Part shown: positions 3,624-4,381 of the stretch, in pieces
Position numbering within the stretch: the stretch's first letter is position 1
Layout of the letters: the number at the start of each line of letters is the position of its first letter
Assembly (NCBI GenBank): GCA_016876015.1
Contig: VGOD01000031.1
Span: 1-35,563, forward strand
DNA: 35,563 nt
Origin: Chloroflexota bacterium
GTDB lineage: Bacteria > Chloroflexota > Anaerolineae > CG2-30-64-16
Direction: 5' to 3'
Notes under the pieces: generated by a model
The model's database searches: none
What the model saw: the letters and a program-made list of their open reading frames with translations, nothing else
Told to the model about the DNA's origin: nothing
Program-made: the position numbers and the translations under genes

Positions 3624-4381
3624 GGAGGGATGGCCGAGAGGTTTATGGCGACGGTCTTGGAAGATCGAGCCTCTGTCCGGAAACGAACGGACAGGGAGTC
3701 ATCTCGCTGTATGCTGGAAACTCCTAAAGCCGACGGTACCGAACAGGTGATAACCCGGGTCGGATGAACAATGGACGACCAGCAGGAAACTGCCTAGCTA
3801 CCGCCGGAGCCTGACTAATAATGGACGCTCGCACTCGTCTTGGCAGTCTGGCGGAGGCGAAAGTCATCACAAAACTGGTAGAGAGCGGTCTTGATGTGTT
3901 CGTCCAGTTTTCAAGCAAGGCGCCGTTCGATCTTGTTGCTGGCCGAGATGGCCGTCTCTACCGAGTTCAGGTCAAAGCGACGGCAAGCCAGACCCCGTAT
4001 GGTACATATCGGGTCTGGCTGAAATCGGTGCGATCCAACCGAACGAAAAACGTGATCCACCACTTCGATCCGTCTCTATGTGATATTCTCGCGATCTACA
4101 TCGAACCACTTGACAAGGTGTGTTTCTTGCGATCAAGTGAAGTGGCGTCGAGGGCTCAGTTGAATTTGCGACAGCAACAGCGACGAGAAGATCGCGAGGC
4201 ATGGGTAATCACTGATCTGGAGGACGTTGGCAGGATCCTCAGAGACCATACGCGAGACGCCTGTGATGGCGAAGATATGGTCCAGACCACAACGCATCAG
4301 CGGCTTGCGAAAGCAGGTGTGGTAAGGAAAACCGTTGTGGCGGCAACGTCACCGGGGGTTCGAATCCCTCTCCCTCCGCCA
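3624..4381 (+). tRNA. tRNA-Ser(UGA), split by a group I intron
   Basis: Exons are 3624-3658 and 4327-4381, giving a 90-nt class II tRNA with an encoded CCA. The acceptor GGAGGGA pairs with TCCCTCC (4371-4377). The D stem is GCC/GGC. The anticodon stem ACGGT (3651-3655) pairs with ACCGT (4331-4335) only after the intron is removed, leaving the 7-base loop CTTGAAA with anticodon UGA. The long variable arm is GTGGCG-GCAA-CGTCAC, and the T arm has the loop TTCGAAT. If the intron is ignored, the 5' half reads CTTGGAA and no sensible stem-loop forms. It is the first gene of the tRNA cluster, from the promoter at 3565, just downstream of serS. Confidence 0.93.
3659..4326 (+). ncRNA. Group I self-splicing intron in the tRNA-Ser anticodon loop
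   Basis: 668 nt inserted between U34 and G35. P1: exon C-U-U (3656-3658) pairs with GAG (3667-3669), which puts the conserved U-G wobble at the 5' splice site. P1 continues with intron GG against UC around an AAGA loop. P2: CTGTCCG 3673-3679 with CGGACAG 3688-3694. P3: TCTCGC 3702-3707 with GCGAGA 4252-4257. P4: GCTGG 3713-3717 with CCAGC 3779-3783, then a J4/5 AAA. P7: GACCATA 4244-4250 with TATGGTC 4276-4282. P8: CGCC-TGTGAT-GGCG 4258-4271. P9: an outer stem ACCACA/TGTGGT with a GAAA tetraloop at the tip. The last base is G (omega-G). The IGS segment (TCGAGCC) and the L9 GCGAAAGC recall the cyanobacterial/plastid tRNA-Leu(UAA) intron, also placed after U34, so subgroup IC3 is likely. The endonuclease frame sits between P4/P6 and P7. 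Confidence 0.92.

Follow-up and report, generated by a model that had tools for sequence, protein, structure and literature searches.

How group I introns change host genes and acquire homing nucleases is an old question for which few natural series are available. The locus studied here raises it again for a serine tRNA: what is the element that splits this gene, from where did its ribozyme come, and did the nuclease frame that it carries come with it? The window, that is, the whole 35,563-nt stretch of DNA that was analysed, holds the split gene beside a seryl-tRNA synthetase gene. Our preferred reading, to which we give a probability of roughly 0.88, is that of a modular group I intron with an I-Ssp6803I-type homing nuclease, which would have entered the only tRNA-Ser(UGA) gene found in this genome with a changed guide base and a nuclease different from those of its ribozyme relatives.

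The split tRNA-Ser(UGA) gene and its ribozyme

ARAGORN in intron mode calls a tRNA-Ser(tga) with a 668-nt intron at 3624-4381, inserted after the 35th base of the gene (U34|G35 in tRNA numbering), and the exons once joined give a complete 90-nt tRNA-Ser(UGA) fold with the same program. Both the host, folding when 3659-4326 is taken out, and the insertion site between U34 and the second anticodon base are those given in a preliminary description of this DNA. Run without intron mode, ARAGORN returns nothing at 3624-4381 and only two downstream tRNAs in the window, and the locus illustrates how a tRNA gene on which the cell probably depends goes unseen in a default search. The gene and its neighbours are the following:

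2066-3346, + strand: serS (seryl-tRNA synthetase), upstream neighbour
3565-3593, + strand: promoter-like site (TTGACA, 17 nt, TATACT) 5' of the split tRNA, 11/12 consensus matches
3624-3658, + strand: 5' exon of tRNA-Ser(UGA), last base U34 (ARAGORN intron mode; empty-site relatives)
3659-4326, + strand: predicted group I intron, 668 nt, last base G (ARAGORN, core fold, covariation, R1 match)
4327-4381, + strand: 3' exon of tRNA-Ser(UGA) (ARAGORN intron mode)
4404-4500, + strand: tRNA-Ser(GCU), intact neighbour
4529-4605, + strand: tRNA-Arg(GCG), intact neighbour

Shuffled versions of the region average 0.6 sites like the one at 3565-3593, which by itself is therefore weak evidence for a promoter. 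Elsewhere in the window, two adjacent glycine riboswitch aptamers lie at 13200-13416.

The spliced tRNA-Ser(UGA) was searched in 60 genomes, the own genome included, and 59 of them contain some match. Full-length matches with 87-99% identity occur in seven of the nine other genomes of the family; the anticodon was checked in four of these seven (G001, G004, G005, and G009), and ARAGORN confirmed an intact UGA tRNA in all four. Ser(UGA) was not seen in the family genomes G006 and G008, where the matches are other serine tRNAs or fragments. Two intact relatives share 89 of 90 positions with the exons, and the presence of serS upstream of the tRNA in 7 of the 12 relatives' loci searched indicates that the locus is orthologous. 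Nine relatives had no good tRNA-Ser match; among the 13 stretches inspected from them, two contain an intact Ser(UGA), most others contain other serine tRNAs, and a split Ser(UGA) was not seen. The own genome assembly (6.53 Mb in 533 contigs, 98.42% complete, 5.52% contamination) matches the spliced tRNA in just the two exon pieces, with 0 matches to the spliced-gene pattern, so that no intact second tRNA-Ser(UGA), an eventuality raised in the preliminary description, was found there. Given the intact tRNA of the relatives, the intron looks like a gain in the lineage of the window.

The elements of the ribozyme were placed as follows:

3656-3669, + strand: P1, with C3656-G3669, U3657-A3668 and U3658.G3667 at the splice site, which G3659-C3666 and G3660.U3665 may extend (read from the sequence; GAG tabulated)
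3665-3666, + strand: UC preceding the GAG guide, potential P10 partner of G4327 and A4328 in exon 2
3671-3696, + strand: P2 hairpin, 3671-3678 with 3689-3696 (18-intron pairing count)
3703-3707, + strand: P3 5' strand, partner 4252-4256 (90/90 cells paired, two-sided change in 4/5 pairs)
3712-3784, + strand: P4 (3712-3717 with 3779-3784) around P5 and P5a (3730-3734 with 3759-3763); P4 and P5 hardly vary
3790-3794, + strand: P6a 5' strand, partner 4229-4233, with the nuclease frame beginning in the P6a loop (61.9% of cells paired)
4229-4233, + strand: P6a 3' strand
4244-4282, + strand: P7 (4244-4248 with 4278-4282) around the P3 3' strand (4252-4256) and P8 (4258-4261 with 4268-4271)
4286-4323, + strand: P9 (4286-4291 with 4318-4323), inner stem with GAAA cap (4307-4314)

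The splice-site wobble U3658.G3667 and the terminal G4326 were read directly from the sequence, and the helices were evaluated by a pairing count over 18 introns, the window included, against 300 shuffles. P3 and P7 have 90 of 90 cells paired each, which none of the 300 shuffles equals; P2 (78.5%), P5a (98.9%), P8 (98.6%), and P9 (96.3%) also lie above all of them. P6a is the weakest helix (1/300 shuffles as good), P6 is invariant, and P4 and P5 are nearly so. Relatives thus provide covariation for P2, P3, P5a, P7, P8, and P9, and the group I core from P3 to P9, with its P3/P7 pseudoknot, is found across the 18 introns. For the 3' halves of seven introns (the window and six others, all among the 18), 91.4% of cells are paired (0/500 shuffles as good), nine pairs show two-sided change (2/500), and the covariation score is 0.407 (0/500), with no excess of further pair types over shuffles in these halves (388/500). 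The trimmed core of the window itself folds better than its shuffles (z -3.33, 1/200 as good). Every element listed in the preliminary description was located, from P1 with its U-G wobble through P2, P3, P4, P7, and P8 to P9 with the GAAA loop and the terminal G, with P3 and P7 above shuffles.

The search with the Rfam group I model that had been suggested as a check divides in two. RF00028 does not match the window at the gathering threshold, and gives nothing in 3580-4700 even at E 10, most likely because the nuclease frame splits the core; an ORF-less relative (L120), whose core is 70% identical to that of the window, scores 71.6 bits, over the RF00028 cut-off, and two introns with a frame inside (L063 and L065) reach E about 2e-4, below it. 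L120 lies outside R1, our 3'-half model built from seven rows. R1 gives the window, one of those rows, 96.2 bits, has matches at E 0.01 in 61 of 396 genomes of the class, and also matches an RF00028-positive intron of the own genome (1.2e-9). Judged by its sequence, then, 3659-4326 is a group I intron interrupting tRNA-Ser(UGA), and its structure together with the empty sites suggests that it splices. Another tRNA gene of the own genome, with anticodon CAU, is split as well, by a group I intron of 237 nt that exceeds the Rfam cut-off (L004, 670-980), and an insertion in the 23S rRNA gene has a weak group I match on either side (L005, 862-1542).

The nuclease frame and its relatives

3821-4444, + strand: open reading frame of 207 codons, PD-(D/E)XK domain predicted in residues 6-125 (PF11645 and 2ost_A matches)

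The preliminary description had also placed a homing endonuclease gene inside the intron, and the domain matches bear this out. PF11645 is matched with E 8.3e-21 and 74.9 bits (cut-off 26.1), and the PDB chain 2ost_A, which we take to be I-Ssp6803I, with 6.4e-5 by sequence alone and 5.5e-38 with the family profile, which assigns the frame to the I-Ssp6803I family. D37 is invariant in both of our alignments (A1 and A2), and V49, V51, and K52 in A2; position 50 is Q in the window and variable among relatives. D37 and K52 presumably have a catalytic role. The last part of the frame lies over the ribozyme core and exon 2 and reaches into the beginning of tRNA-Ser(GCU); there is no stop within the intron and the frame runs on to 4444, which means that the protein, if made, would come from unspliced RNA, or that the gene may be decaying. 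We consider it rather unlikely that the intron is a degenerate, non-mobile remnant that still splices with a nuclease inactive or no longer made. The stopless frame running over the core and exon 2 would fit such a remnant, as would the presence of the nuclease in only 1 of 10 genomes of the family, but the PD-(D/E)XK domain is uninterrupted within the 207 codons and the invariant residues named above are retained.

No relatives of the nuclease were found in the genome-contig set scanned or in plasmids, and the closest ones found belong to phages, the best of them with 34-41% identity; identity to the nucleases of related introns is 26-30%. Sixteen viral loci were examined, from 13 of 59 phage records and three IMG/VR loci: in 14 a tRNA lies no more than about 90 nt away from the nuclease gene, the other two have none, and in phages NJ12 (L048) and EC106 the gene adjoins an intact tRNA-Ser(UGA). 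Free-standing PD-(D/E)XK genes next to tRNA genes were observed in phage tRNA arrays (L048-L050 and L297-L306).

The nuclease trees were built on 137-138 columns of very divergent proteins, with long branches flagged, in two overlapping data sets. One clade joining the nuclease of the window to those of related introns is rejected by the AU test in both, with p 3.5e-4 (41 rows) and 1.8e-5 (34 rows, including L068, whose intron is absent from the core tree described below). In the 34-row set the test does not reject a clade joining the nuclease of the window to five phage nucleases that have Ser, Arg, and Leu tRNAs as neighbours (p 0.32). The nuclease of the window has no starred neighbour in these trees, and the Ser-labelled nucleases do not form a clade. 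A grouping of nucleases by neighbouring tRNA was considered and is only partly supported: the labels require 18 changes on the tree against a shuffled mean of 24.1 (0/200 as low), but the rows labelled Ser show no clustering and the test rejects a Tyr clade (p 0.016). The comparison with the ribozyme tree supports a nuclease history that differs from the ribozyme history, and the discordance of the two trees suggests that nuclease and ribozyme were combined separately. An unlikely alternative is that both moved jointly from one donor and that the trees disagree artefactually because the nucleases evolve fast, for which the divergence of the proteins and their long branches would speak; against it stand the AU rejections in the two overlapping data sets and an Arg(UCU) intron (L061, 1316-1990) with the nuclease gene antisense inside it, an arrangement that requires either an inversion or one or more separate insertions.

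Hosts, descent and guide of the ribozyme

Exons were re-joined, at the U and the terminal G, for 90 of the 91 R1 matches (L198, which is cut off, was left out). A tRNA was obtained in 69 and none in 21, and in many of the latter we read 23S rRNA sequence after the match. Leaving aside a doubtful Gln case (L196), the 68 hosts are CAU tRNAs (Met or Ile, 25), Leu(UAA) (16), Arg(UCU) (14), Lys(UUU) (4), Lys(CUU) (3), Tyr(GUA) (3), Val(UAC) (2), and Ser(UGA) (1, the window); the Rfam loci add Asn(GUU). The host names that ARAGORN gives in intron mode were discarded for the relatives in favour of the re-joined exons, since for several relatives they proved wrong (Arg-UCU named as Ser-GCU, Lys as Asn or Pro, a CAU tRNA as Leu-CAA). 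The introns in tRNA-Asn(GUU) lie between positions 35 and 36 (L085-L088 and L093), and this set includes the four strongest Rfam matches among 199 genomes of the class. A CAU tRNA gene of another locus (L039, 918-1461) appears split by a 544-nt group II intron (GUGCG...AC), with an RF00029 match of 64.7 bits near its end and a PD-(D/E)XK frame on the opposite strand just downstream.

A pattern consisting of the 3' splice site and the Ser(UGA) exon 2 gave 97 stretches (87 genomic and 10 viral), three of which re-join to tRNA-Ser(UGA): one from Acidithiobacillus sulfuriphilus CJ-2 (L266), one from a proteobacterial MAG (L217), and one from a 344-kb viral contig (L293). R1 matches the first two (4.9e-11 and 9.7e-11) and does not match L293; Rfam gives no group I match to L266 at E 0.1, and 31.1 bits (E 4.9e-6, below the cut-off) to L293, whose group I-like intron of 521 nt occupies 3534-4054. 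A serine host had been described as rare or undescribed; rarity stands, and with these three further cases the serine host is rare rather than unique, the two proteobacterial introns being probably separate in origin from that of the window.

The core tree contains 52 intron cores and 225 columns, with untrimmed introns longer than 430 nt and L293 left out. The window falls among Arg(UCU), Lys, and Val introns in a clade of 22 rows with support 100/99, as sister to the Lys(CUU) introns on a branch with support of only 96/74, and both proteobacterial Ser introns group with a Leu(UAA) intron (99/97). AU tests reject a clade of the window with the eight Leu(UAA) rows (p 1.9e-5) and a single Ser clade (p 5.7e-6), p values that are indicative because the tree was seen before the tests. 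The core of the window is 69-73% identical to those of the three Lys(CUU) introns and 47-52% identical to those of the eight Leu(UAA) introns. As part of our preferred reading, the ribozyme would have come into tRNA-Ser from Arg/Lys/Val introns within its own bacterial class, and the window and the two proteobacterial Ser(UGA) introns appear to be of separate origin.

These results do not support the earlier proposal of a jump or shared descent from tRNA-Leu(UAA) introns, although the GAGCC guide on which it drew was confirmed. Leu(UAA) introns do agree with the window in site (U34|N35) and in the GAG guide, but both are common to them and the window because the hosts share C32-U33-U34; given the low core identity and the rejection of a joint clade, in a tree whose eight Leu(UAA) rows all come from this class and whose set does not include cyanobacterial or plastid introns, we regard vertical descent or a direct jump from tRNA-Leu(UAA) as very improbable.

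What differs among hosts is the base that precedes the guide. GAG was taken as its first match within 110 nt, a loose choice, and the table leaves out 28 Met and Tyr rows, with two Lys(CUU) rows unscored. All rows with Ser, Arg, Leu, Val, or Lys(UUU) hosts have an exon 1 ending in CUU and an intron with a GAG able to pair with it. A C precedes this GAG in three of the Ser introns, those of the window and of the two proteobacterial loci, and a U in the viral one; G stands there in 14/14 Arg and 4/4 Lys(UUU) introns, and U in 2/2 Val and 14/16 Leu introns. Pairing of this base with the opening base of exon 2, G-U allowed, is possible in 39 of 41 scored introns. A shuffle test on 40 rows, with all three Lys(CUU) rows left out, gave 38 pairs at the first P10 base against a mean of 18.4 (0/20000 shuffles reach 38) and 25 at the second against a mean of 16.6 (38/20000 as good); permuted over the five hosts, the result is modest (4/120 as good). 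The Lys(CUU) introns, in our own reading, use AGGAG, a guide that fits Arg(UCU) as well if the splice-site wobble shifts by one base.

It is very unlikely that the split gene is a pseudogene in a cell relying on another UCA-reading tRNA absent from the assembly, for which the fragmentation, completeness, and contamination figures given above leave some room, since the exons match two intact relatives at 89/90 positions, the core covaries, and a promoter-like site is present. Our preferred reading of a modular intron would work as follows. The precursor would be cut after U34 by guanosine attack and the exons joined into a 90-nt tRNA reading UCA codons. P1 would read C32-U33-U34, common to most hosts of the intron group with the exception of Lys(CUU), and one P10 base would read anticodon position 35; the window has C for it, Arg and Lys(UUU) introns have G, and Val introns and almost every Leu intron have U. 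The ribozyme would have moved into tRNA-Ser from its Arg/Lys/Val relatives, and the nuclease, from a different lineage whose nearest members are phage genes beside tRNAs, would have been joined to it separately and would cut the intronless tRNA-Ser gene, driving homing. The structure, the site, the empty site, the guide match, and the discordant histories are supported. Self-splicing, cleavage of the intronless gene, homing, and nuclease exchange as the route into Ser are what we infer from them.

More tentatively, and at a little less than even odds, the introns may represent a re-targetable ribozyme family, in which a near-constant GAG plus one base for position 35 makes the anticodon loop the address, the same core serves Ser, Arg, Lys, and Val tRNAs, nucleases are swapped from a tRNA-associated and partly phage-borne pool, and tRNA-Ser was entered at least twice independently. 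One bacterial class here offers the kind of series that the old question needs: its related ribozymes sit in Ser, Arg, Lys, and Val tRNAs and have a guide base that matches the host, the nucleases are of other history, and free-standing relatives of these nucleases lie beside phage tRNA genes.

Comparison with known systems

The open-access literature searched, in those parts of it that were available, names no group I intron of a bacterial tRNA-Ser; subscription literature lay mostly outside the search. In the excerpts concerned, four intron-bearing bacterial tRNA genes are mentioned and I-Ssp6803I is listed (PMC1995217), split Arg-TCT and Leu-TAA genes are reported (PMC4853749), fMet and Ile2 (PMC8450103) and fMet and Leu(UAA) (PMC4033280) are named, and group I introns are noted in some tRNAs of the genomes studied, with no isotypes given (PMC8172020). 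Introns of 22-49 nt in cyanobacterial Arg, Gly, and Lys tRNAs are presented as group I in the available part of PMC5733544; in our judgement they are too short for a group I core.

The tRNA-fMet intron of Synechocystis with I-Ssp6803I resembles the window in being a group I intron in a tRNA gene with one PD-(D/E)XK nuclease, and in length (655 nt there according to the excerpt of PMC1995217, 668 nt here), but its host tRNA differs. The fMet-type introns of the present class are inserted at U33|C34 with the nuclease gene before the core, whereas the window has U34|G35 and a gene in P6a, and their nucleases branch apart from that of the window. The Leu(UAA) introns of the class share the insertion after U34 and the GAG guide, yet they are not the nearest relatives of the window, with core identity of 47-52% and a joint clade rejected. 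The tRNA-Arg(UCU) introns of the class share the ribozyme clade and the site of the window, and two of them (L063 and L065) also have the nuclease gene in P6a; they differ in the P10 base (G in 14/14, C in the window) and in nucleases from another branch. Putative group I introns are also reported in tRNA-Arg(UCU) of Thiomargarita and BOGUAY (PMC4853749, in part); the likeness described here concerns the Arg(UCU) introns of the class.

With regard to the viral side, a 2014 review of collaborative homing (PMC3984707) states, in its available part, that all phage introns observed until then lay in protein genes, with which the group I-like intron in the tRNA-Ser(UGA) of the viral contig L293 would contrast. 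The collaborative homing that it describes in phages is like our proposal in that a free-standing nuclease and an intron act at the same conserved site and are later joined; the difference is that the putative targets here are tRNA genes.
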